From positions 1 to 64,000 of the IMG/VR virus record IMGVR_UViG_3300023281_001121: 64,000 nucleotides of DNA; one strand, written 5' to 3'. This document shows positions 3,645-33,440 of the stretch, piece by piece. The notes below the pieces were generated by a model. It had not been told where the DNA came from and ran no database searches. It saw only the letters and a program-made list of their open reading frames with translations. Positions within the stretch are counted from its first letter, which is position 1; each line of letters opens with the position of its first letter. Both the position numbers and the translations under genes were made by a program. The DNA comes from a virus.

Positions 3645-3994
3645 GTCGACTCCCGATGCAATGGATCAATGATCTTTTTAACACCATTGAGAACGTGACG
3701 CATGTTAGAAGCACTGATTGCATCGATCCCCATGCCGTTTTCCTTTAGCACTTCGTGTGCCTTTTTGAAATCCGGCTCAGGGAATACCTCCAGCGGATAC
3801 GCGTCGATCCACTTAGTGAGCGTCTGCATCCCGCCCTCTAACTCTTCGATCCTGTCGACGCATTCCTTGAATCGATTCGCGATGAGGTTAAAGACCATAC
3901 CACGGACGAAATCGTTCTTGTCCAGCATTTCCTGCGCGGTTTTTTTTAGCTCTTCTGCGAGGTCCGCTACGGGCATCGTCGCCATATCCGCCAT
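3641..3994 (-). CDS. Hypothetical helical phage protein, 117 aa
   Basis: Starts MADMATMPVADLAEEL with AGGAGT 8-10 bases upstream. It is a helical protein with a coiled-coil-like middle and a C-terminal segment (ISASNMRHVLNGVKKII) that I associate with other uncharacterised phage proteins. The strong ribosome-binding site supports this start even though the upstream gene overlaps its first 107 bases in another frame. Confidence 0.6.
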   Translation of the reverse strand: MADMATMPVADLAEELKKTAQEMLDKNDFVRGMVFNLIANRFKECVDRIEELEGGMQTLTKWIDAYPLEVFPEPDFKKAHEVLKENGMGIDAISASNMRHVLNGVKKIIDPLHREST

Positions 3995-4238
3995 GTCGTT
4001 TCACTCCTGTCTGTATCGCGCGAAGACCCAGTGTCGTCAGGTACATCGTTCGCACCCAGATGTCATATCGCGGTTCTGTTCGCACCCATCGTTTGTCGAT
4101 GCACTGTTGTTCCAGTTCGCGTCGTCGGTGCGGATTCGGGCACACCATAACTGAGCAGCCGAGTGACCCCATTCCAAGGTCGTCCATTTTCTTCAGGTCA
4201 TGAAGGAATCGCAGCTGCCCTTTGGAAATGCTGGGCAT
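3888..4238 (-). CDS. Hypothetical protein, 116 aa
   Basis: ATG 4238 overlaps the upstream TGA (TGATG). The first 75 residues look like a compact fold (KGQLRFLHDLKKMDD, then a helix-turn-helix-like YLTTLGLRAIQTG). The last 36 residues are basic and lie in the part that overlaps the next gene, so they may be unstructured. No family is recognised; a small DNA-binding protein is possible. Confidence 0.5.
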   Translation of the reverse strand: MPSISKGQLRFLHDLKKMDDLGMGSLGCSVMVCPNPHRRRELEQQCIDKRWVRTEPRYDIWVRTMYLTTLGLRAIQTGVKRHGGYGDDARSGPRRRAKKNRAGNAGQERFRPWYGL

Positions 4239-4513
4239 CAGCCTGTGACGTGCTTCACCGCCCACATCACCGCTTCCTCGATCTTCGTCTGCGCGAGCGC
4301 GAGTTCGCGAGACGCCTGACGGTTGGACGCGTCCGCGACCTCGCCAAAAGGACCGGTACCGCCGATTACGTGCAGTAGATTCACGAAGGCAAGACCTTGG
4401 TCTTTGACCTCCATCATCTGAACCTTCTCTTCGTCGTTGAGTACGCGGTACTGATGTCGCATCAGGTTGTTGCCGATGCGCTCGTCGGATGTGCTGTCTA
4501 CGTTTTCGGCCAT
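4238..4513 (-). CDS. Acb2/Tad1-like hairpin-domain protein (probable anti-CBASS/anti-Thoeris sponge), 91 aa
   Basis: The start is ATG 4513 (MAENVDSTSD), overlapping the upstream TAA. The protein is two long helices. Helix 1 contains QYRVLNDEEK...VKDQG with Tyr22 and Lys37 fifteen residues apart, the same spacing as the ligand-binding Tyr11 and Lys26 of the phage anti-CBASS protein Acb2. Helix 2 (ASRELALAQTKIEEAVMWAVKH) has the family's 'SREl.lA.T.l..avMW.v' signature. Known members form multimers that sequester cyclic oligonucleotides (Acb2) or gcADPR (Tad1). The assignment is from remembered family patterns, not from a search. It sits among small accessory genes, as anti-defence genes usually do. 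Confidence 0.6.
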   Translation of the reverse strand: MAENVDSTSDERIGNNLMRHQYRVLNDEEKVQMMEVKDQGLAFVNLLHVIGGTGPFGEVADASNRQASRELALAQTKIEEAVMWAVKHVTG

Positions 4514-4746
4514 TATTCTTTCCTGTGGAGTGTGAGTTTGAATGTCTTGTCGGAGGGATTGGTCTCGATGTTCATGTAGAAATCCCCGGCAGCGTCGACC
4601 TCTTCGACGGGCAGCGTGATCTCGCCGCCGAGCCTGCCAAGGAAGCACAGCAGCAGATCGCTCTTCATTTTTTTGAACGCCTCCTGCATCTCTTCTGGGA
4701 GTTCGTCTTGCGTGTAGATTTTGTCGCTGTCGAGTTGCTCGCTCAT
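4513..4746 (-). CDS. Hypothetical acidic protein, 77 aa
   Basis: The frame from ATG 4746 (MSEQLDSDKIYTQDEL) overlaps the upstream stop (ATGA) and ends TAATG into the next gene. Longer in-frame versions extend into the sulfotransferase gene and look non-coding. It is helical at the N-terminus (PEEMQEAFKKMKSDLLL) and then beta-rich. No family recognised. Confidence 0.55.
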   Translation of the reverse strand: MSEQLDSDKIYTQDELPEEMQEAFKKMKSDLLLCFLGRLGGEITLPVEEVDAAGDFYMNIETNPSDKTFKLTLHRKE

Positions 4747-5393
4747 CGTCCGTAGACCGCCCTGTTTTCCCACATGTAAAGATCGTCCGCGTAATGCTCT
4801 AGCAACTTGAATGCCATCGTCGCGATGCCGTCGTACATCGCAGTCCACGGATCGCCGTTCGGATAAGTCTTGTTGTTCAGATGCACGACCGCGAGCGTTG
4901 ATTCGATCTCCCAGGTGCGTACGAACTGTGGCCACGCGGTTTCGACCTCGTCGAGACGCATGACCTGGACGTGTCCCAGCCAGCCCCTAGCAAGACGAAG
5001 GCCTATGCTCTGCGGGCGGAAATGTGGATCGAGGTTCTCCGGATTTTGCGACGTCAGGATGCGCAACAGCCGACCGACGAATTGATCGAACTGCATCTCC
5101 GGTCGAAAGTCGTAGGTCTTGAACGGCTGGTAGAAGTGATCTCGGATCAGATGATTCCACGCACTGACACAGCGCGCCAGCGGATGGCGAACGAAGCAGC
5201 CGGTGACGAGCGGCTCAGGCCACGTTGCAGCTTGCTTGATGTCGCCGACCAGCGTGCGGCCTTCGTCTTTGGAACTCGCGCCGCGATCGACGGCTCCACC
5301 GGGCGTCGTCAGAAACATGTTCGTCAGCGAGGTGTGTCCGGACTTGTTGAACGTCACGAAGCGCACGCCGTGCCGCTGCAGGATGTGAGTCAT
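4743..5393 (-). CDS. Sulfotransferase family 2 (PAPS-dependent) protein, 216 aa
   Basis: The N-terminal FNKSGHTSL (residues 15-23) is a 5'-phosphosulfate-binding loop. FVRHPLARCVSAW (residues 67-79) is the 3'-phosphate-binding motif, very close to the 'vRHPfeRlvSAy' signature of carbohydrate sulfotransferases (PF03567). These enzymes move sulfate from PAPS to a sugar or other hydroxyl. The length is near a minimal catalytic domain and there is no signal peptide, so it should act in the host cytoplasm. The substrate is unknown: host surface glycan precursors, phage DNA modifications or signalling molecules are all possible. Neighbours are small accessory genes. The family is confident; the biological role is open. 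Confidence 0.75.
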   Translation of the reverse strand: MTHILQRHGVRFVTFNKSGHTSLTNMFLTTPGGAVDRGASSKDEGRTLVGDIKQAATWPEPLVTGCFVRHPLARCVSAWNHLIRDHFYQPFKTYDFRPEMQFDQFVGRLLRILTSQNPENLDPHFRPQSIGLRLARGWLGHVQVMRLDEVETAWPQFVRTWEIESTLAVVHLNNKTYPNGDPWTAMYDGIATMAFKLLEHYADDLYMWENRAVYGR

Positions 5394-9938: not shown

Positions 9939-10994
9939 ATGCAAACGAAAGTTCAGTTGACACAAATGACAAGCGACGTGCTGCTGCAGACGTTGCGAGT
10001 CAACGCGCTGGCCCAGGAGCCATCGTTCACCTGGGGATCGCCTGGCATTGGCAAGTCAGACGTTCACCAGCAATTGGCCGACAGTCTCAACGCGCCGCTG
10101 ATCGATCTCAGAGCGAGCCAGTGGGACGCGGTCGACACTCGCGGCATTCCCTTTGTCGATCGCGCCGATGGCGCGGCACCGACGACTCGTTGGGCTGTGC
10201 CGGACGTGTTCCCATCAGCTGAGTACGCTGCGAAGCACGAATGGGTGGTGCTGTTCCTGGACGAGCTAAACCTGGCCGCGCCTTCGGTGCAGTCCGCGCT
10301 CTACCAGCTGATCTTGTCGCGCCGCCTTGGCGACTACGTCCTGCCGGACAACGTCGTCCTGTTCGCAGCTGGCAACCTGGAGACCGATCGCAGTGGCGTG
10401 CATCGGATGAGCCAGGCGCTGGCCGATCGGTTCTTTCACTACCAGCTGATCGTCGACAACCTGGCCTGGGAAAAATGGGCGCTCGAAAATGACCTGCACG
10501 TTGCGACCATCGCGTACAACCGATGGCGTCCGCAGCATCTGCACGACTGGGACGCGAAGTCGGTGAGCAAAGCTCAGGCGACACCGCGCTCCTGGTACAA
10601 GGTCAGCAAGGTCCTGAAGATCATCGAGGCCGAGGGCATCAACGGCCAGGTCGAAGCGGGCCTGGTCACCGGCAAGATCGGTGAGAGTGTCGGCGCGGAG
10701 TTCATCGGCTTCCTGAAGATCTACCGCAACCTGCCGGACCCAGATGGCGTGATACTCGCGCCGGATGCGGCCCCGGTGTCTGAGGACCCAGCCGTGAGTT
10801 ACGCGCTCTGCGGCGCGCTGGCTGAGCGTGCGACCGATGGCAACATCGACCGCATCATTCAGTACGCGGAGCGGCTGCAGCCTGAGTTCATGACGCTGCT
10901 GATTCGCAGCGCAGCCGTGCGTCATCCTGAGGTGCAATCCACCAAGGGCTTCATGAAATGGGCGAGCAAAAACGCTGACGTTTTAATCAAGTAG
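9939..10994 (+). CDS. MoxR-family AAA+ ATPase, 351 aa
   Basis: Walker A is GSPGIGKS (residues 33-40). Walker B is VVLFLDEL (103-110). A sensor-1 Asn sits in FAAGN (146), and an ALADRF segment near 165 provides a likely arginine finger. This is the MoxR/RavA/NorQ type of AAA+ ATPase, which uses ATP to remodel or load metal cofactors onto partners that carry VWA domains. The next two genes encode a DUF3150 protein and a metallopeptidase-VWA protein, so the three very probably form one chaperone-like complex. The start ATG follows CGGAGAAG. Confidence 0.8.
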   Translation: MQTKVQLTQMTSDVLLQTLRVNALAQEPSFTWGSPGIGKSDVHQQLADSLNAPLIDLRASQWDAVDTRGIPFVDRADGAAPTTRWAVPDVFPSAEYAAKHEWVVLFLDELNLAAPSVQSALYQLILSRRLGDYVLPDNVVLFAAGNLETDRSGVHRMSQALADRFFHYQLIVDNLAWEKWALENDLHVATIAYNRWRPQHLHDWDAKSVSKAQATPRSWYKVSKVLKIIEAEGINGQVEAGLVTGKIGESVGAEFIGFLKIYRNLPDPDGVILAPDAAPVSEDPAVSYALCGALAERATDGNIDRIIQYAERLQPEFMTLLIRSAAVRHPEVQSTKGFMKWASKNADVLIK

Positions 10995-11061
10995 GGGGGC
11001 ATCGCAGAGCGGCCTGGCTATGAGGCCGCTCGACGATGCAATCCCGCATCAACGGAGAACC
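10995..11061 (+). promoter_or_regulatory. Structured leader, copy B of the repeated element
   Basis: CGCAGAGCGGCC (11003-11014) starts a 7-bp hairpin, AGCGGCC (11008-11014) with GGCCGCT (11024-11030). It is followed by CGACGATG and CAACGGAGA directly before the DUF3150 gene. Confidence 0.55.
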
Positions 11062-11967
11062 ATGATGGAAACCAAAAACAGTAATGAGCGACTAATGATC
11101 GTTCGGCTGGGCATCCACCAGTGGTACCCGCGCAAGTTTGACCTGAAGGCAACGAAGACGATCGCCGACGTGCATGGCGTGAGCATCGAGCGAGCCGGAC
11201 GGTTCAATAAAATCCTGGTCGACCTGGCCGAGATTAAGCCGCTGCAGAAACGTCTGCGGCTACTGCGCGATGACCACTACGCGATGACCTGCCCGTTCGG
11301 TGATAACGGTCAACGCGCGCTGTGCGCCGAGTTGTATTTCGATCACGTCGCAATGGTGCGCGATGCGATCGTGGACATCGACCGCCTGGCCGATGACTAC
11401 GCGGCGAAGTACGACGACGAGCGTGCGAAGGCGAAGCTCGCGCTGAATGGTCTGTTCAATCCGGATGACTATCCTGACTCGAACGAATTGCGCGCGCGCT
11501 TCAGTGTCGACTTCGGTTACGAGCCGCTGCCCAGTGGTGACGGTGTCAACGCGTGGACCGCGCTCGACGACTCGGCACGCGAGGCAATTCGCGAAGAGCT
11601 TCAGGCATCGATGGACGCGGCGGTCGAAGGCGCGCACAAGGATGTCGTCAATCGAATCGTCGAGAAGGCGCAGCACTTTGTGAAGCGCGTTCGCGAGATC
11701 GATGAAGAGGTGAAGCTGACCGATAAGAACAGCGGCAAGGGCCGGATTCACGACAGCGTCGTTGGTCATCTGCGCGACATCGTCGACCTGGTTTTGCGCG
11801 GGCTGAATGTCACGGGCGACCAAGCCCTGGCGAAGCTCGCAGCTGACCTGGACGAGGCCCTGGCAGGTGTCACGACCGATCGCATTCGCAACGGCTCGAC
11901 TCTCAGACTTGAGCGCGCCGACGCGGTCGAGAATGCCGTCGCGAAATTCGCGGGAGTGTACGGATGA
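11062..11967 (+). CDS. DUF3150 protein, MoxR/VWA partner, 301 aa
   Basis: It begins MMETKNSNERLMIVRLGIHQWYPRK, and this opening plus the following ATKTIAD region is the N-terminal pattern I know from DUF3150. That family is regularly found between MoxR ATPases and VWA proteins in phages and plasmids. The rest is long helices, probably coiled-coil, with no catalytic motif. It is likely the adaptor or substrate component of the complex. The stop overlaps the start of the VWA gene (ATGA), indicating coupled synthesis. Confidence 0.7.
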   Translation: MMETKNSNERLMIVRLGIHQWYPRKFDLKATKTIADVHGVSIERAGRFNKILVDLAEIKPLQKRLRLLRDDHYAMTCPFGDNGQRALCAELYFDHVAMVRDAIVDIDRLADDYAAKYDDERAKAKLALNGLFNPDDYPDSNELRARFSVDFGYEPLPSGDGVNAWTALDDSAREAIREELQASMDAAVEGAHKDVVNRIVEKAQHFVKRVREIDEEVKLTDKNSGKGRIHDSVVGHLRDIVDLVLRGLNVTGDQALAKLAADLDEALAGVTTDRIRNGSTLRLERADAVENAVAKFAGVYG

Positions 11968-13355
11968 GCGACAAAGCGGCACAGGCCAAAGCCGAGAAGG
12001 CCTTGCACGATGCAACGCGCATCCTGCGAAATCACCGGGCGAAGGTGGTGCAGTCGCACCCCTTCTTCGGTGCGCTACTGCTGAAGCAGAAACTCGTCGC
12101 GTCTCGCGATGTGCAGACGCTCGCGACAAATGGCAAAGAGCTTTTCTACAATCCGGACTACGTCAACGGTCAGCGTACCGAGTACCTGACATTCGACGTT
12201 GCGCATGAAGCTCTGCACCCGGCACTGGGTCATCACGTCCGACGCGGCGATCGTCGCTTCGACTGGTGGAACGAGGCCTGCGACTTTGTCATTAACCCGA
12301 TCCTGCGCGATGCAGGATTCCATGTGCCGGACGATGCGTTGATGCGTCCGGACCTGGAGGGCATGCACTCCGAAGGCGCTTACAAGATCCTGGAAGGCGA
12401 GCGTGCCCAGCCCGATACCGGTGGCGGTGGTGACGACGGTGACCAGGGCCAGGAGCCGGACGAGGCTGGCCAGGACACGTCCCAGGCACCTCCTCAGCCC
12501 AAGCCGATCGAGGAGCCGCAGGACGAGCCTGGCGATTCCGAGGGTCAGGACGACGGCGACCAGGGCGAAGGCTCTGGTGACGGCTCTGGTGACGCCCAGG
12601 ACGGCGATTCGGGCCAGCAGCAGCAGGTCCCGAGCTTTGGAGGTGCGGGTGCGGTTCTCGATGCGCCCGTGGCCACCGAGGCTGAGCGCGTCGCTGAGGA
12701 GCAGGACTGGAAGGTGTCACTGACCCAGGCGGCAAACCTGGCAGCGGCCAGCAAGTCGGCTGGGAATCTCCCGGCTGACCTGCTGCGGCACATCGAGGAG
12801 ATCCTGGAGCCGAAGGCAAACTGGCGCGAGATCTTGCGCCGGTTCATGGATCAATTCTCCCAGGAAGATTCGACCTGGGCGGTGCCGAATCGAAAGATGA
12901 TCGGCGAAGGTCTCTACCTGCCCAGCATGCGCTCCGAGAAGCTGCCGCCGATCTTGTTTGTGATCGACGCGTCGTCGTCCATGCCTGACGAGTCACTGCA
13001 GCAGGCGGGCGGCGAATTGCAATCGATCATCGACGAGCTTAAGCCTGAGTTCCTGGACGTGATCGTCCACGACACAAGCGTGCGCGGCGAGCCTGAGCGA
13101 TTCGCGCCTGACGAGCCGGTGGTTCTGAAGGCGCGTGCCGGTGGCGGTACCGCATTCGCTCCAGTGTGCGAGTGGATCGAGAACGCCGAGGAGGAGTACG
13201 CGTGCGTCGTCTGGTTCACTGACCTGGACCCGTGGGACTGGGACGACTGTAAGCCGCCTGAGGTGCCGTTGGTCTGGATCGACTGGACGGGCCAGGACAA
13301 TCCCGATGTGCCGTTTGGCGATGAGGTGGTGCCGCTGGATGACGACTGGAGTTGA
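11964..13355 (+). CDS. DUF2201-type metallopeptidase-like plus VWA-like protein, 463 aa
   Basis: The N-terminal domain (1-150) has HEALH (residues 81-85), an HExxH zinc motif, followed by WNEACDFVIN with Glu104 as possible further ligand. A disordered Asp/Gly/Gln-rich linker spans about 150-230. The C-terminal domain contains FVIDASSSM with the DxSxS metal-ion-dependent adhesion site (Asp335, Ser337, Ser339) of VWA folds. This is the architecture of the VWA-like/DUF2201 'putative metallopeptidase' family that pairs with MoxR ATPases. Substrate unknown; it may process or remodel a host or phage protein. Confidence 0.8.
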   Translation: MSDKAAQAKAEKALHDATRILRNHRAKVVQSHPFFGALLLKQKLVASRDVQTLATNGKELFYNPDYVNGQRTEYLTFDVAHEALHPALGHHVRRGDRRFDWWNEACDFVINPILRDAGFHVPDDALMRPDLEGMHSEGAYKILEGERAQPDTGGGGDDGDQGQEPDEAGQDTSQAPPQPKPIEEPQDEPGDSEGQDDGDQGEGSGDGSGDAQDGDSGQQQQVPSFGGAGAVLDAPVATEAERVAEEQDWKVSLTQAANLAAASKSAGNLPADLLRHIEEILEPKANWREILRRFMDQFSQEDSTWAVPNRKMIGEGLYLPSMRSEKLPPILFVIDASSSMPDESLQQAGGELQSIIDELKPEFLDVIVHDTSVRGEPERFAPDEPVVLKARAGGGTAFAPVCEWIENAEEEYACVVWFTDLDPWDWDDCKPPEVPLVWIDWTGQDNPDVPFGDEVVPLDDDWS

Positions 13356-24482: not shown

Positions 24483-27400
24483 TTAGAAGAAATCGATCAG
24501 CGGTTCGACCTGTGCCGCGAGTGCGTTACGTTGCTTTGTCAAGGTATCAGTTAACGCTTGTCGACGTTGAGGAGAGAGTCTGCGATCCATCGATATGATG
24601 TTCATCTGCTTATTGACTGCGCTGATCTCGCGGGTCACTCGACGTAGATGCGGGAGGGCAGCGAGTTTCTGGCTTTCATTCGCAGCGATACCGAACGCTG
24701 CATCACCTCGACCCTCTTCCTGATAGATCTTCAGTGTGCGGGCAAGGCCATCAGCCTCGCTTAGCATCTCCCATATCAGTCGGTTGTACTTGGTCGTCGT
24801 TGGGATCTCGCCGCGCTTGAATCTCTCGATTACCGGCAACTCATGCAGTCTCTTCGACGTTAGCTCACCGAGCGTGCGCTCAGGTCCGTATAGGATGGAC
24901 TCGGTCATCACATTGCCGACGCCCATTGCATACACACCTAGCGCACCGAAGTAACCGCGAACGAAATGCTCAAGTCGCTTAGGTGACTGCAACCAGTCCG
25001 GAGCAGCTTCAGGCATCGCGTCGCCAACCCACTTCGCGAACTCCCCCGTGCGCCAGTCGTACTGACGTTCAGGCAGAAGGTTCTCCATGCCAGCCGGGAT
25101 GATCGGAGAATCGGTGAAGAAGCTTGTGTTGTAGTAGCTCTCCATCCACGGCTTAACAAGCTGCGGGACCGGGTTGAACGCGAACGTGTCAGTCGTCGCT
25201 GCGAGCATGCGCTCTGCAAATAGATCCCACCCATCAAGACCCTTCATGGACCGAAGCATTCTCTCTGGTATCGTCGAGAAGATGACTCCAGACTCAAATG
25301 GTTTCGGGATGCGGAAATGTTCGTCGCCGACCCAGAAATGATAGTAGGTGTCTTTGTCCCACTCGCTCACTTCGTCATACCGCTCGTCGTCGTCGTTGTA
25401 CAACGCTAACGCGATCGACGCCATCATCAAGCCGCCGCCCTTGGCGAGGAAGTTCATGGGATGTTCTTTCGCGCCGCGATACAGTCGATTGAGTCCCTGC
25501 ACTCTCGCATTCAGGAACGGCACGATCTGGATCATCGTCTGCGTTGCAGCCCAGTCTCCGGAGCGCGTGAAGTTGAGGAGATCCTGCGCCTGGTATGCAG
25601 CCTCCGCAGGCGACGGGATGCCCTCATTTATAGCTTGTCTGGACGCGTCCGCACCAGACATGCCGGTGGCAGTAAGCTCAGCGATCCTTCCATCCCACCG
25701 AGCTTTCAGTGTGTTGTACACGCGAACTCGATTACCGAACTCGGATGCGGTACCGACTCGACGCCACCACTTGAGCATATTCTTTGGTGACACGACGGTC
25801 TTCATGAATCCGCTGACGTCCTTGACGCCCATGTCTTTGAGCAGTCCACGGATCTGATCAGGATGTGAGTCGTAGAACCCGCCGCCGCCTCGACCTGCAT
25901 ACGCAAGCGCAAGCATCGCCGGGCTGTCGTTGTACGCTTCACGCAGCGAACTGATCGGCGCACCGAGAGACTTGATCGGGACGTCGCTCACTACGAACGT
26001 GGTCACCGTGTCACGTATCCAGTTGGCGATCATGAAGGCTGGATCGACAGTGACACCAATCGTCAGCCACTTCTTCGACGTCCTAAATAGCGACATCATC
26101 CCGCCGAACTGTTGGCCAGTCATGCCGCCGATCGAGCGCATGAGCATGCGGTCAGTCACTGCGTAGTATTGGGGCTTGCCCTTCTCCCACACGGTAACGA
26201 CATCACCACCCGGAGGCTTCATCCTCGTCCAGAACGTAGCCCATCGCTCCTGCTCACTCTTCGGCCACTGGTTGTAGATCGCTTCCGCGCCAGCGGCGTC
26301 AGAAGCATTGATCATGCCAGCCTTCAGCATCAGTTCTGAGATCTGCTTGGCGTTCAGAGAGAGGATCGGGCGCGCGACCTGGTCGAGCTTGATCATCGAC
26401 CTCGTTACCAGTCCGACCTTGGCGATGCGCTTCATTGCCTCGTTGCGATAGGTGCGCTCCAACAGGTACGCCGTGTTCATAAACATGGACTCGACGACGT
26501 TACCCTCTAGTCGCAGCGCGTCACCTTCACGATCAACGCCACCAGTCAGCTTAAAGATACCGCTCCCGCCGACATCAATTCGTTGACGTCCTGCTCCTGG
26601 TTCGCTGCGCCCTTCCAGCTGCATCGCCTCGCGCCAGAAAGGAACGTATTCGTACTGCCTCCACAGCGCCGCTTCCTTCTTATCGAGTACGCCACGGTTG
26701 ATCGCGAGATCGATGTTGGCCTGGTTCAAGCTATCCCACTTCGACAGGACCTCTTCGAAGACCTGCTCGTACGTGCGTCCGTCTGGAGCGGTACGAGTTT
26801 TCGCCCAGTCCAATGTCTCCGTCACCAGCTGCTCATCGAGCAACTTCTCTCTGGCTCTAGGCGTGCCGTGAGTACCCTTGGCCTTGTCTTGTTGAATGAT
26901 TCGCTGCGCTCGTCGAGCGACCATCCATTTCTCCCAGTTGCGCAGCTGACTGGTACCACCAATAGCTGATAGCGGCTGGAAGATCTCGGTGAATCCTTGA
27001 CCGTTGACTGGGTTTGAGAACTGACCGCCTTTGAATGATGGGATGCCATGACGCATGACCGCGCCCATCACGTTGTTGAAATTTCGTAACGTGCTGTAGG
27101 CTTTGTACGCACTGGCAGAAGCGTCGAGCAGCCCGTCTGCCAGCTGTATCTTCAGGCTCTTCGCAGCCTTCGTTTCCAGTACCTTGATCTGATTGCCCGA
27201 GTCGAGCAGTCCCTGCGTAAGCTCGTCGTACGCATTGTCATGGAATTCCTGGAGCCGCTTCTTCAGGCGGTCAACGAACGACATCTCTCGCTGAGGGATG
27301 TTCATCTTCTCTTCCCAACGACCGTCGAGATCATCGTTCATTGGGGCGCTCTCTTGCGAGAGGTACGGCACATCGAATTCTTCCGCAAGATCTTCAAGCG

Positions 27401-30400
27401 CGGAGCCTAGCTCCTGATCGTTGCTCGCTTTACGAACGCGGTCGAGGTTCTTCGACTTCAGGAACTCGCTGTACTTGTCGCTACTGCGATCGATTCCAAG
27501 CCCACCAGCCATCAGCGCACGGCGCTCCGCTCGTCTCTTGCTGGTACGGATGAGTCCTATCACGTCGGCGTCTGTCGGTGTCACCGTGAATCCCAGCTGC
27601 CGGACGAAAATCTTGACGCGGGCGATGATCTCCTTCATGACAGCGGCCCTACCGTTCATCGTCTCGGCTAGGTACGCAACGATCTCTTCAGTGAAGATGT
27701 CTTCGCCATTCTTCTCGATCGAGTAGCCTCGACCCATCATCACTCCGATAGCGTCGTTGATCGCATCGTTATCAGAGTTCAGGATGATCTTCTTTAGCTC
27801 AGGCAGTAGAGCCGTCTTCCACTTAGGCATCTGGCTCATCGTGAAGTGTCCGAACGTCTCATGCTGAATTGTTGCTTCGATGTCCGCAACGCTTTGCATG
27901 TTACCGGCAACGATCCAGATCTCTTTCTTGCTTGGCTGATACATCCCCTTGATGGTGGAGGCTCTGCCTCTTACGTTAGCCGGAAGATCATTCTGCGTCT
28001 CCACAACCCGAATGCGGACCAACGACGACAGGCTATTGATGACGTCAAGGATCTGGAACCGAACCTCACCGGCAGTGAAACTGCGTTGCTTGCCCTTGCG
28101 ACCTCGCGGGTTCTTGACGACGCGATCGTCTGAGGTTAGGAGCGTCTGTCCTTCGGCTGGATCGGTAAGCTGTTCAGCAGCCCCCTCTGCTGCTGACGCA
28201 GGCCTGGCAGTCTCGGAGAGGCGGGGTTCGTCTGTTCCAGCCCGCTGATCTGACGATTCAGAAACCGTGCCTGAGCCTGGTTCCCCGGCGGCAGGGGCCT
28301 GCGTGGTCTGTAGACTGGCATCGCGTTCTCCTACTTTTGCTTTCGGGGTTTGGAGTCCTTTTGCGGACTCGGCTTTGATTGCTGCCCTGATGATGGACTG
28401 GACTTCTTTGGCAGCACTATCGAGCTTCCCTCTGAGAAGATTGGATCGTCCTCTGGAACGGAGGCTCTTACGGTACGAATTGCCATTGCCTGTCTCCCAT
28501 TCGCCTTCGGAGCCGTGCTTCTCCAGGCGAGTCTCAACTAGATCAACGTCGATGGTGAGATTGTGCCGGTCTGTCAGTGCAAGGAACTCACCCTCTTTGA
28601 CGTCAGATATTGTACCAGCCGTATCGGTGCCAAGCGTGAGACGTTCCATGATCATTTGTTTCATGGCTTTGACACTGCGGAACTGACCGGTCTCCTTTCC
28701 TGCCTTGGTTTTGATCTCTGTGCGCTCGACCGTGATAGCAATTCCAGGAGCCTGATCACCTAGGCGCTGCGCTCCGCGCCACCCAACAGCCAACTCTGGG
28801 AACAGTTCGGTGAACTCCTTCATGAACGCTTCGGATACGGCAGCGTCACCTAACCCGCCTTCGCCCTGAGGATCAGAATACATGTAGATCGTGATGGAAT
28901 TAGCGCCTGACTTTTGCGGCTTGGTTCGGTACACCTCGCTCTGCTGGAGCAGAAGACCGATGACGTCAGCGAGATCTGCGGCGCGTGCCTCACTCGCCAG
29001 TGTGGTTAGCTGTGCCGATGGGTTAGGACTGAAGTCGGCGTACCCACCTGGAACGTATTCAATGCTAGTGGTCTGGCTTTGAACTAGACCCTTAGCAATC
29101 GGGATGACCTTGTCGACGACCTCCTGAGTAACTCGCGTGCGCTGCTCGACTGACAGCTTCGCCCACGCTGCAGCGAACAACTTCTCCATCGGCGAGCCAG
29201 ACCCAAACTCAACCTCGAATGAGAGCAGCTGCTCGTTCTTGGTGAAGGCAGCACTCGGAGTTTCTGGGCCACGACCGGTAGTAGGCAGCGACACCGTGGT
29301 AACCATGTGAGTCCAGTCGACTGCCTGAACTTCAGCTGCTGTCCATCCACCGCCGTCGAAGCCTTCCTTGTTCAGCTGTCTGGCAACGGCATTGTAGAAC
29401 GCGACGCCTGACTGGTATGCGGGTTCACCTGGCACGCCACTCTTCTGATCAATGACCAGTTTCGCTGCCTTCTTTCCGAACCTCTCCTGCAGATACGCCA
29501 GATAGGTGTCATCGATGAAGCCAACACCTCTTGATGCGTGGACATCTATAACTGCTGGCTGCATCCCACGGATGTCATGCCCCATGACGGTCCTGGTCAG
29601 CGTACCGATTGCACTATCGAGGAAGTCGTGGAGCTTCAGGCCGATGCCCTTCTCAACGACGCCTCCTGAGAAGAACGTCTTCAGCTGCTCTTCGCTAAGG
29701 CCTGCCTTCGATAGGTCTGGTGCGCCGCGAGACTTCTCGTCAGCGTTCAGCAAATTACGCATCGCTCCAGATGGTGACTCGTTCTTGTTCGCCATCAGCC
29801 AGCCGACCATCAACTCGTCCGCTCTCTCTGATCCGAACTTCTGATGGAATACCTTGCGAACGTCTCGATACCAGGTGCGAAACTCCTTGGTCGACTCAAA
29901 GTTATCGCGGATCTGTTTGACCTTGTCGCGAGGTTTCTGCTGACCGACGACTATCGTCCCGTCTTTGTCCTTCAGCACCGTGCGTGCGTTGCCTGCCGGT
30001 AACGCTCCACCGGTCACGGCTTTTGCTAGTCGTTTAAGATGCCTCCGCACATTACCAACCGCGTCTTTCGGTACTGGTCTCTGCACAGTTGGATTGTCAC
30101 GACGGATCTCGAACGCTTCCTGATCGAAGGTCCCGCTGGGTGGCCGCGTCAACGTACCAGCATTACCTTGCTCTGCAACGAAGCCAGCTGCCTCGTAGAA
30201 CTGCCGAAGCTCAGCGACCTTCATGCCCTGGTCGGCTGCGTCTTCCTTGGTCGGCGTGACAGTTAGTGTGACGTCGTTCTTGTCAGCTATCTGAGTGGTC
30301 TCGAAAAGCACGTCACCGGCTGCAGCCTGCGCTGGAGTCTCGTCACCGCGCTTGATCAACTCCTCGATCTTGACCGTGCCACGTTTCGGGCTTGAGACCT

Positions 30401-33400
30401 GGACGACAGCATCGCTCTTCACGACCTGCTGCGGAGCCGCCTTGTTCTGAACAACGCTCTTCGACAGATCCTTGGCGAAGCCGTCGACCCTCTCGTCACC
30501 AGTCTTGCGCGAGTTGGGGGAACCATCCTTCGGCGTGCTGCTGAACAGAGGCTCACTGCCAGACTGTTTCGATCGCACAGCTTCGGCAAGATTCTCGGCG
30601 ATCGTCTGACGATTATCGCGAGATTTGACAGTGACGCCTAACTCGGCAGCAGTTTCCTGAAGATCCTTACGTGACTGCTTTGCCAACTCCTCAACTGGTG
30701 ACTGGGCGCGAGCTATGGCAGCAGCCCGAGTTTCGCGAGCGCGCTGTCTTTCTCGTTGCTCTACGGTCGGACCTTTTTGTGCAGCCGTTTTCGGAATTTT
30801 GGCCGCGCCGATTTTTTCGGATTTGGCATCTGCGGGCCGCTGTGCATTCACTTTTGTGAGCAGATTCGATAATGCTTTCGACGCACCGCGAGCGGCTTTG
30901 TCGTTCTGCTCGATTGCCTGCGCGTCCTCAGCATTAGACGCCTCGTTAATTGCATCCACTGCAGCATCGAAGTCGGTAACGACTAGATGTCCGTCCTCGA
31001 TCGTCAGCCCATCGACCTGGACACCTCCGTCTGTGCGAACCTCAAGCGCGCTGGCCTGCGCTGTCGTTAGCTTGACCCGAACGGCTTCGGCTTCGGAGAC
31101 TTGGTTGTCTACTAGCCTCTGAAGCTGGGCTGCTTTGTTACCGCTGACAGGCAGATCATTGTTCTGCAGCACGGTGCGCAGTTCGTCCGAAGTGACTACA
31201 TCTATGCGGACGTCTTCTACAGTCAGGGTACGAGAAGGATCTTTGAATGCGGCGTCGAGTTGACGGTCATCAAGTATCTCTACCTTCGGACTCGCCCCGG
31301 TGGTCTCGGTAACGGGTTGCGCTGCTGCGGCGACTGGTTGCTCCGCTGGTTCGCCTTCAACTCCCCGTGGCTGTTCTTGCCTATCGGGTTCCGCGCTCCG
31401 CTCTGCACGTCCGTCCGGCTGTTGAACATCCTCGCTGCCTTCCCCGCTGACGCCTTCGGGCTTAGCCCTTGGCTTCGAAACTTTTTCTTGAGGCTGTTGA
31501 ACTGTTTCGGCACTGGGAGTCTCCTTGGCAGCAGCAGCTGCCTGCGTTCCGATGTCTTCCTCTTGGACGGTGGTCTCATCCACCTCTTCGGCCTGGGCCT
31601 GTGCCGTACCGATGGCTTCGTCTGTCGTGACGTTGACCGCCTGACCAGCAGGTCCAGCTGGCGGCGCGACGTCTGGCTTCTCACCAGGCTCACCTTCCTG
31701 AGTTGAAGCTGCAGCCTCTTCGGCATCACCGAGAGGTCGATCGCCCGGTCGGCCCGTGACGAAGTTCGCGCCTGCGCCTGGTACTAACATGCCAACGATC
31801 GTGGCTGGCAGTAGCACGTTGGTTTCGTCTTTGAATTTCTGGAACGCCTGCTCTACGGTGATCGTTTCCTGGCCGAGCATTATCATCGCTTCAGCCGGAC
31901 CCTCAAGGTACTCAGTGAGACCCTCGACCAGCCCGCCCAGCAGGCGAAGGCCAGCACCAGCAGCGAGCGAGTGTGGTGTCTTAATTGGAGCCAACAGAGC
32001 AGCTGCACCTGCCGAGTTTAAGATACCGCTGGCTGCGGTCATCATCAGGAACGCATTGTTGGCGGTAGACTGCGCGACGTCTTCCGGTACGCCTTGCTCG
32101 CGCAAGATGTTCAGCGTTTCGCGATAGGTCTGCGACCCTTCCAACATACCGCCAGCGATGCCGCCGACTGCTGTTGCTGTACCGATCGCTGCTCTACCGA
32201 TGCGAGCCATCTTCGCCTGCACCAGAGGATCTGCCATGTCAATCTGACGCCCGCCGACCCTCAGGAACCTGCCTGGCTGAGCTTGCCGTCGCACTCTACG
32301 CGGGAGTGCTTGACGCTGCGCTGCAGTCAGAGCGCCTTTCTTCAGCACCTCTGTCTCTGCCGCTCCACCGACTGTGCCTGCTACTCCTGCTCTCCTCGCA
32401 AGCTGAGACATGGCGAGCTTGCGGACTGCAGCGCGAGTGAGACCAATGGGGGTGAGGGTAGCGAACAGCGATGGAATGATCTGCCCTATCTGGTACGTCA
32501 GAAAGTCACCGTCTAGCAGAAGCTCAGGGTTCTCAAACACGTTGCCATCTGGGATGACTGCGCGCTCCGCGAACCCCTGGATGCGTGGCTGAAAGAACTC
32601 CTCGATACTCGTTCCCATGTTGGCAACAGCATCGATGCCTGTGATATTGCCCAGGTAGTTCAGGATCGTACCGGTGGACTCAGCCAAGCCAAGCCCACCT
32701 ACTGATAGACCTCTGCCAAGGTTCGCGAACAGACCGCCGCCCTCGCCCTGAGCTACGCGCTGAGCGCGCTGAGCGACAGCCTCTGGTGGCTCGTCAGGGG
32801 TGGGGTCAGCCCTGAGCCTGATGTCCTGCGTTGTAACCGGGGGCACAGACTCTGGATCTGGGGTCACAGCAGGCGTCGACTGAGCCATCATCTGGCGCTG
32901 AGCTTGCTGAGCTTGCCGTGTAAGGTTGCGGGCTTCTCTCAGGTTGGCCCCACCAGACGGCGGGAGAGGCTGCTCAGGAGGCGTGCCAGGTGGGCGGGGC
33001 AAGTCCGCACCACCACGGTCGATCGCTTGAGCTACAGCACGCTGGGCTGGTCCCTGCACGGTTGGCGGGGCAGGTAAGTCTGCCGGTGTGCTGGGGTCAG
33101 CCATCTGAGCCAGGCTCACCCGAGCAGGAGGCTCTTCCAGAGTGGCGTTGAAAGCCTCTCTGAACCGGCGAGTATGCGTCGGCAGATCGTCGGTGATCTC
33201 AGCGGGCTTGATCTCGGTGGGCTGGCGGGTACCTTCCTGGAAGCCACGGATGGCGTCGACCATCTCACGTCCACTCTCAGGACTGATCGCACCAGACCCC
33301 ATGCCAGCCTCTAGATTTCTGACGTTGCGCGCCCTGAGATCTAGGCTGTTGGCGTCCTCAAGAATCCTCGATGGATCAAGAGGATTCCTGGGCCTGGCTC

Positions 33401-33440
33401 CCTGAGCGACAGGCGGTGGGCGTGGTAGATCGATTGCCAT
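24483..33440 (-). CDS. Giant polyvalent internal-virion (ejection) protein, 2985 aa
   Basis: It is the largest gene in the window. The first 250 residues are Pro-rich, and Gly/Ala-rich hydrophobic helices occur at about 410-560. A SAP-type DNA-binding segment (about 747-785) is followed by a second SAP/Rho-N-like stretch. HETFGH (1860-1865) within IQHETFGHF is an HExxGH metallopeptidase-like motif. From about 2050 to 2900 the sequence resembles the LPD38-type domain found at the C-terminus of large polyvalent phage proteins (for example VDPAFMIANWIRD and KPFESGVIFSTIPERML). Such proteins are packaged and injected with the genome. It probably combines channel, protease and DNA-binding functions. 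No RNA-polymerase motifs were recognised. Confidence 0.75.
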   Translation of the reverse strand: MAIDLPRPPPVAQGARPRNPLDPSRILEDANSLDLRARNVRNLEAGMGSGAISPESGREMVDAIRGFQEGTRQPTEIKPAEITDDLPTHTRRFREAFNATLEEPPARVSLAQMADPSTPADLPAPPTVQGPAQRAVAQAIDRGGADLPRPPGTPPEQPLPPSGGANLREARNLTRQAQQAQRQMMAQSTPAVTPDPESVPPVTTQDIRLRADPTPDEPPEAVAQRAQRVAQGEGGGLFANLGRGLSVGGLGLAESTGTILNYLGNITGIDAVANMGTSIEEFFQPRIQGFAERAVIPDGNVFENPELLLDGDFLTYQIGQIIPSLFATLTPIGLTRAAVRKLAMSQLARRAGVAGTVGGAAETEVLKKGALTAAQRQALPRRVRRQAQPGRFLRVGGRQIDMADPLVQAKMARIGRAAIGTATAVGGIAGGMLEGSQTYRETLNILREQGVPEDVAQSTANNAFLMMTAASGILNSAGAAALLAPIKTPHSLAAGAGLRLLGGLVEGLTEYLEGPAEAMIMLGQETITVEQAFQKFKDETNVLLPATIVGMLVPGAGANFVTGRPGDRPLGDAEEAAASTQEGEPGEKPDVAPPAGPAGQAVNVTTDEAIGTAQAQAEEVDETTVQEEDIGTQAAAAAKETPSAETVQQPQEKVSKPRAKPEGVSGEGSEDVQQPDGRAERSAEPDRQEQPRGVEGEPAEQPVAAAAQPVTETTGASPKVEILDDRQLDAAFKDPSRTLTVEDVRIDVVTSDELRTVLQNNDLPVSGNKAAQLQRLVDNQVSEAEAVRVKLTTAQASALEVRTDGGVQVDGLTIEDGHLVVTDFDAAVDAINEASNAEDAQAIEQNDKAARGASKALSNLLTKVNAQRPADAKSEKIGAAKIPKTAAQKGPTVEQRERQRARETRAAAIARAQSPVEELAKQSRKDLQETAAELGVTVKSRDNRQTIAENLAEAVRSKQSGSEPLFSSTPKDGSPNSRKTGDERVDGFAKDLSKSVVQNKAAPQQVVKSDAVVQVSSPKRGTVKIEELIKRGDETPAQAAAGDVLFETTQIADKNDVTLTVTPTKEDAADQGMKVAELRQFYEAAGFVAEQGNAGTLTRPPSGTFDQEAFEIRRDNPTVQRPVPKDAVGNVRRHLKRLAKAVTGGALPAGNARTVLKDKDGTIVVGQQKPRDKVKQIRDNFESTKEFRTWYRDVRKVFHQKFGSERADELMVGWLMANKNESPSGAMRNLLNADEKSRGAPDLSKAGLSEEQLKTFFSGGVVEKGIGLKLHDFLDSAIGTLTRTVMGHDIRGMQPAVIDVHASRGVGFIDDTYLAYLQERFGKKAAKLVIDQKSGVPGEPAYQSGVAFYNAVARQLNKEGFDGGGWTAAEVQAVDWTHMVTTVSLPTTGRGPETPSAAFTKNEQLLSFEVEFGSGSPMEKLFAAAWAKLSVEQRTRVTQEVVDKVIPIAKGLVQSQTTSIEYVPGGYADFSPNPSAQLTTLASEARAADLADVIGLLLQQSEVYRTKPQKSGANSITIYMYSDPQGEGGLGDAAVSEAFMKEFTELFPELAVGWRGAQRLGDQAPGIAITVERTEIKTKAGKETGQFRSVKAMKQMIMERLTLGTDTAGTISDVKEGEFLALTDRHNLTIDVDLVETRLEKHGSEGEWETGNGNSYRKSLRSRGRSNLLRGKLDSAAKEVQSIIRAAIKAESAKGLQTPKAKVGERDASLQTTQAPAAGEPGSGTVSESSDQRAGTDEPRLSETARPASAAEGAAEQLTDPAEGQTLLTSDDRVVKNPRGRKGKQRSFTAGEVRFQILDVINSLSSLVRIRVVETQNDLPANVRGRASTIKGMYQPSKKEIWIVAGNMQSVADIEATIQHETFGHFTMSQMPKWKTALLPELKKIILNSDNDAINDAIGVMMGRGYSIEKNGEDIFTEEIVAYLAETMNGRAAVMKEIIARVKIFVRQLGFTVTPTDADVIGLIRTSKRRAERRALMAGGLGIDRSSDKYSEFLKSKNLDRVRKASNDQELGSALEDLAEEFDVPYLSQESAPMNDDLDGRWEEKMNIPQREMSFVDRLKKRLQEFHDNAYDELTQGLLDSGNQIKVLETKAAKSLKIQLADGLLDASASAYKAYSTLRNFNNVMGAVMRHGIPSFKGGQFSNPVNGQGFTEIFQPLSAIGGTSQLRNWEKWMVARRAQRIIQQDKAKGTHGTPRAREKLLDEQLVTETLDWAKTRTAPDGRTYEQVFEEVLSKWDSLNQANIDLAINRGVLDKKEAALWRQYEYVPFWREAMQLEGRSEPGAGRQRIDVGGSGIFKLTGGVDREGDALRLEGNVVESMFMNTAYLLERTYRNEAMKRIAKVGLVTRSMIKLDQVARPILSLNAKQISELMLKAGMINASDAAGAEAIYNQWPKSEQERWATFWTRMKPPGGDVVTVWEKGKPQYYAVTDRMLMRSIGGMTGQQFGGMMSLFRTSKKWLTIGVTVDPAFMIANWIRDTVTTFVVSDVPIKSLGAPISSLREAYNDSPAMLALAYAGRGGGGFYDSHPDQIRGLLKDMGVKDVSGFMKTVVSPKNMLKWWRRVGTASEFGNRVRVYNTLKARWDGRIAELTATGMSGADASRQAINEGIPSPAEAAYQAQDLLNFTRSGDWAATQTMIQIVPFLNARVQGLNRLYRGAKEHPMNFLAKGGGLMMASIALALYNDDDERYDEVSEWDKDTYYHFWVGDEHFRIPKPFESGVIFSTIPERMLRSMKGLDGWDLFAERMLAATTDTFAFNPVPQLVKPWMESYYNTSFFTDSPIIPAGMENLLPERQYDWRTGEFAKWVGDAMPEAAPDWLQSPKRLEHFVRGYFGALGVYAMGVGNVMTESILYGPERTLGELTSKRLHELPVIERFKRGEIPTTTKYNRLIWEMLSEADGLARTLKIYQEEGRGDAAFGIAANESQKLAALPHLRRVTREISAVNKQMNIISMDRRLSPQRRQALTDTLTKQRNALAAQVEPLIDFF

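Follow-up and report, generated by a model that had tools for sequence, protein, structure and literature searches.

Does a 91-aa protein encoded within a tightly packed block of phage genes belong to the Acb2/Tad1 sponges, and if so, which signal might it hold? Acb2/Tad1 sponges soak up small nucleotide alarm signals that set off bacterial anti-phage defence. The gene lies in the window, i.e., the whole analysed stretch of 64,000 nucleotides (positions 1 to 64,000 of IMG/VR record IMGVR_UViG_3300023281_001121), which is part of a 71-kb uncultured virus record. The virus is an uncultured tailed phage, and its major head protein shares ~50% identity with the major head proteins of four ~60-kb phages, Ochrobactrum phage POI1126, Erwinia phage PEp14, Burkholderia phage DC1, and Pseudomonas phage Itty13. 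A preliminary description had placed a 91-aa protein at 4238-4513, and an ORF lies exactly there, on the minus strand, a detail absent from that description. The gene and its two junctions are as follows:

4238..4513, minus strand: gene (P0001) for the Acb2/Tad1-hairpin protein, 276 bp, 91 aa, assigned by PF24729 match and AF2/Foldseek
4511..4515, minus strand: TAATG stop/start overlap with the upstream 77-aa gene (4513-4746), read by eye from the sequence
4236..4240, minus strand: TGATG stop/start overlap with the downstream 116-aa gene (3888-4238), read by eye

The full sequence of the protein is MAENVDSTSDERIGNNLMRHQYRVLNDEEKVQMMEVKDQGLAFVNLLHVIGGTGPFGEVADASNRQASRELALAQTKIEEAVMWAVKHVTG. An AGGA-type ribosome site can be read directly 5' of the ATG, and the opposite frame at 4238-4513, on the plus strand, is interrupted by a stop. 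Because its start and stop each overlap an adjoining gene, the hairpin gene is a member of a tightly packed minus-strand operon. Farther along the same strand block are genes for a DUF6475 protein and a DUF1376-like protein (the latter just below cut-off), which we take to be replication-type genes. Two genes upstream of the hairpin gene (4743-5393, minus strand), a 216-aa protein resembles Sulfotransfer_2 (E=2e-4, 21.9 bits, cut-off 22); no match to it was found in the phage collection, and it is possibly a phage sulfotransferase. Elsewhere in the window, a MoxR-like AAA ATPase followed one gene further by a DUF2201 metallopeptidase/VWA-like protein (9939-13355, plus strand) constitutes a MoxR-VWA-type pair within a phage, and a single ORF of 2985 aa (24483-33440, minus strand) perhaps encodes a giant virion-delivered protein of the kind found in Bcep22-like phages.

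The assignment of the protein to the Acb2/Tad1 hairpin family, which the preliminary description had proposed along with an HMM check, is secure. The hairpin model PF24729 matched it with E=1e-15 and 58.1 bits, about twice the curated Pfam cut-off of 27 bits, and also matched all 70 aligned relatives. The same model gives 70 bits with T4 Vs.4 and 65 bits with PaMx33 Acb2 (orf24), both proven sponges, and had no match in 14 control genomes. The top PHROG for the protein was PHROG 717 (1.6e-7), the group used to collect Vs.4 homologues (PMC10097602). A PDB search with the protein as a single sequence did not find Acb2; matches to Acb2 needed a profile built from 70 sequences, and with this profile of relatives the search retrieved Vs.4 (1.6e-4), PaMx33 Acb2 (1e-3), 'Acb2 homolog 43' (9ptq; 4e-3), and Tad1 (0.011). 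Matches to phycoerythrin in PDB and NCBIfam (E 0.02-0.7) were dismissed as chance, being far under the cut-off and confined to a GGTGP loop stretch. PADLOC holds no model for the protein, as expected for an anti-defence protein. The Acb2/Tad1 family is already known, making this protein a fresh relative of known sponges, and its branch may already be sampled in the sponge-diversity preprint of Hadary from 2025.

With the relatives from the fetched loci supplied as the alignment, AF2 returned a model with a mean pLDDT of 82.8 that bears out the description of a two-helix protein: a short N-terminal helix (residues 11-14) precedes an antiparallel hairpin (27-51/69-90). Confidence is highest in the cores of the hairpin helices (pLDDT 95-98), whereas residues 1-20 are poorly defined (~50-60). 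The hairpin comprises these parts:

4361..4435, minus strand: helix 1, residues 27-51, which includes Lys37 (AF2 model)
4313..4360, minus strand: extended helix-helix turn, residues 52-67 (alignment; pLDDT ~80)
4244..4309, minus strand: helix 2, residues 69-90 (AF2 model, alignment)

The turn is 16 residues longer than in most relatives, which lack this insertion in the alignment. Foldseek against PDB placed Vs.4/Acb2 chains at all of ranks 1-8 (prob 0.91-0.99), and the best viral matches were mostly proteins named Acb2/Tad1 hairpin. All E-values for the model were >0.1, which is weak because the protein is a small 91-aa hairpin. Neither of the outcomes said in the preliminary description to speak against a sponge, a missing HMM hit and a fold lacking the paired hairpin, occurred. 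The model has the architecture by which Acb2 is defined, a short N-terminal helix and two long helices (PMC12043709), here antiparallel and with no beta domain. A Tad1-type N-terminal beta-sheet domain would require strands that the AF2 model does not contain, only ~25 residues preceding helix 1, and Tad1 proper is thereby excluded.

The next question is whether the ligand site of Acb2 is kept. T4 Vs.4 is a hexamer with three bound cGAMP molecules, in which Y8 and F82 stack on the bases, Y8, H11, K23, and R79 make polar contacts, and A66, A73, A77, and L29 are required for assembly (PMC10097602); T68M weakens binding in T4 Acb2 (PMC12657230). Two residues had been singled out in the preliminary description as spaced 15 apart like their Acb2 counterparts, and they align without gaps to those of both PaMx33 and T4:

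4448..4450, minus strand: Tyr22, equivalent to T4 Acb2 Y8 and PaMx33 Acb2 Y11, ligand stacking (role of Y8: PMC10097602)
4403-4405, minus strand: Lys37, in helix 1, equivalent to T4 K23 and PaMx33 K26 (alignment)

Besides Y8=Y22 and K23=K37, the alignment pairs T4 R79 with K87 and T68 with T76, and the small residues of the hexamer interface A66, A73, and A77 with A74, A81, and A85; T4 L29 falls in an alignment gap, so no counterpart could be placed. Across 65 relatives, Y22, K37, K/R at 87, T76, A74, A81, and A85 are invariant or nearly so. Two T4 pocket residues differ (H11=L25, F82=T90), and both L25 and T90 are fixed within the branch; the functional PaMx33 Acb2 also departs from T4 at these positions, with L14 and A88. 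The conservation of the pocket positions suggests that most of the ligand site is retained, with a replacement at one stacking residue. Helix 2 hardly varies on three of its four faces (entropy 0.22-0.31 bits, against 0.91 for the fourth), as would be expected of a helix buried within an oligomer or a ligand site.

The sequence quoted earlier from helix 2, SRELALAQTKIEEAVMW, is present as quoted, and the conserved positions of this helix are R69, E70, A74, T76, E79, E80, A81, M83, W84, K87, and T90. A Thoeris-type, Tad1-like ligand is conceivable on this basis, with the SRExxxAxTxxEEAxMW helix 2 binding cyclic ADP-ribose isomers and not CBASS dinucleotides. The helix-2 signature is close to that of Tad1, and F82, which in T4 stacks on dinucleotides, is not kept. 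We nevertheless regard this ligand choice as rather unlikely, given that the protein is nearer to Acb2 in sequence and fold, that its model is without the Tad1 beta domain, and that Tyr22 and Lys37, which belong to the dinucleotide pocket, are retained with hardly an exception.

A novel ligand had also been suggested on the ground that helix 2, with its MWAVK, is diverged from well-studied members. This does not hold: T4 Acb2 has KEASMWACR and Tad1 has EEALMWMNR at this place, and the motif gives no ground for a new ligand, being shared with T4 Acb2, Tad1, and homologues from Clostridia, Bacilli, and Deltaproteobacteria. TKIEEAVMWA is in fact found letter for letter in homologues of Clostridia, Bacilli, and one deltaproteobacterium. 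Three loci (L108, L109, and L110) encode proteins of ~70-85 aa from Clostridia, a deltaproteobacterium, and Pullulanibacillus; their helix 2 is almost identical, SRE(R/K)SLAxTKIEEAVMWA, and the N-terminus is not in common with the window protein, which suggests that the superfamily has helix 2 as its conserved core. What the alignments show to be specific to the subfamily is instead an N-terminal segment, DxRxxNNxxRHxY:

4448..4498, minus strand: N-terminal subfamily motif, residues 6-22, DSTSDERIGNNLMRHQY (alignments of 65-75 relatives)

R12, N15, and R19 are invariant and D10, N16, H20, and Y22 nearly so, and the D10-R12-N15-N16-R19-H20 motif is absent from both T4 and PaMx33 Acb2 in the alignment. 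The N-terminal part contributes to the pocket in Acb2 (PMC12043709), so the branch motif could tune the ligand. A stronger version, in which a distinct Alphaproteobacteria-phage subfamily of sponges uses this invariant segment as a lid or extra pocket to capture a signal that none of the tested Acb2 and Tad1 proteins covers, is a tentative idea to which we give limited credence.

At least 199 homologous stretches occur in viral contigs; relatives are also encoded at 26 bacterial loci, which are mostly alphaproteobacterial and probably represent prophages. The relatives, 42-71% identical across all those found, are scattered over unrelated phages whose hosts, where known, are mostly Alphaproteobacteria. 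Per 55 aligned codons there are ~28 third-position differences against 13 first- and 9 second-position differences, a pattern in the coding sequences that points to purifying selection on the hairpin gene. A dead or chance ORF might be suspected of a gene this short whose relatives in deposited phages are annotated only as hypothetical, but the hundreds of conserved homologues, the purifying selection, and the operon overlaps refute it, leaving a negligible probability.

The neighbours of the relatives vary (terminase, portal, head protease, endolysin, helicase, exonuclease, and others), and a search for a conserved operon partner found no homologue of the window's neighbour genes near any relative. 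The family PF24729 is also absent from the four capsid-related phages. The lack of a constant partner together with this absence marks the gene as mobile cargo, which is consistent with anti-defence. As for the hosts, two of nine clear carriers had CBASS against 27 of 298 genomes in one order, which is no significant link (enrichment p ~0.2, a binomial estimate by hand).

Some relatives have unusual settings. In Sinorhizobium phage Aussie (L083, 5992-6228), the relative is flanked by the genes for the head-to-tail adaptor and the head-to-tail stopper, a location that is unusual for anti-defence, and only one relative (L057) has this gene context. In two phages (L042:5995-6684 and L053:5995-6720), the hairpin continues in frame into a tail of ~160 residues with 1-2 predicted membrane segments; the two tails resemble each other (E ~3e-4), and the fusions are conceivably a membrane-tethered sponge or a signal-gated lysis protein.

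These settings bear on a housekeeping or regulatory role, in which the hairpin would buffer a messenger nucleotide, e.g., c-di-GMP or c-di-AMP, or control lysis or virion assembly, with no part in counter-defence. The Aussie position, the membrane-tail fusions, relatives that adjoin endolysin genes, and the unusually tight conservation could all be read this way. The relatives have no constant neighbour or module, however, and the tested superfamily members described in PMC12043709 and PMC10097602 are signal sponges, and we consider such a role improbable. Across unrelated phages, the sequence is conserved more strictly than one would expect of a gene in an arms race, which counts to some degree against a sponge.

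On balance, the protein is probably one of the phage sponges for nucleotide signals within the Acb2/Tad1 hairpin superfamily. The sequence makes a function like that of Acb2 likely, and homology and the conserved pocket residues would together imply an anti-defence function. We read it as an oligomer that would take up cyclic nucleotides and so counter signalling of the CBASS or Thoeris kind, where we infer the oligomer, the ligand, and the anti-defence effect. As such, the protein would be made from an operon of small genes, which shares a strand block with replication-type genes, and through the small-residue faces of helix 2 (A74, A81, and A85) several copies would assemble into a ring or hexamer. 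In the pockets between protomers, Tyr22 could stack on a base, with Lys37 and Lys87 on the phosphates; a cyclic di- or trinucleotide, or a signal of the cyclic ADP-ribose type, may then be bound in the pockets and kept away from a host CBASS- or Thoeris-type effector, which would not be switched on. From sponges one can learn which nucleotide alarms are in use in a group of hosts. While the single window gene adds an expected member to a family already described, the widely shared, strongly conserved subfamily with its invariant extra motif suggests a common, constant signal in alphaproteobacterial hosts and, via the bound ligand, is a direct handle for finding it.

Compared with known systems, the protein shares with Acb2/Vs.4 of T4 (7UQ2) the PF24729 match, the short N-terminal element and hairpin, the MW in helix 2, and the residues Y8, K23, R79 (as K), T68, A66, A73, and A77. 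It has Thr for F82, Leu for H11, a different turn length, and a DxRxxNNxxRH motif that T4 Acb2 is without, and identity between the two is low (21-23% in the Foldseek alignments). PaMx33 Acb2 (p26; 8H2J, 8H2X) has a nearly identical start of helix 1, YRxL(S/N)xEE...VK, and its Y11, K26, and R85 positions are kept, whereas its helix 2 reads GMMAIIR against AVMWAVK and it lacks the N-terminal motif. Tad1 (7UAV, 8KBG) shares the helix-2 signature SREx...A.T..EEA.MW; its hairpin follows an N-terminal antiparallel beta-sheet domain (PMC12043709), unlike the window protein, which has no beta domain. The PF24729 proteins of Alphaproteobacteria phages, e.g., Sinorhizobium phage Aussie gp37, belong to the same subfamily and carry the N-terminal motif, although most lack the 16-residue turn insertion and their annotation is only hypothetical. 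DVVG_00015 of Dunaliella viridis virus SI2, deposited with an algal host, is of the same subfamily and has the same N-terminal motif.
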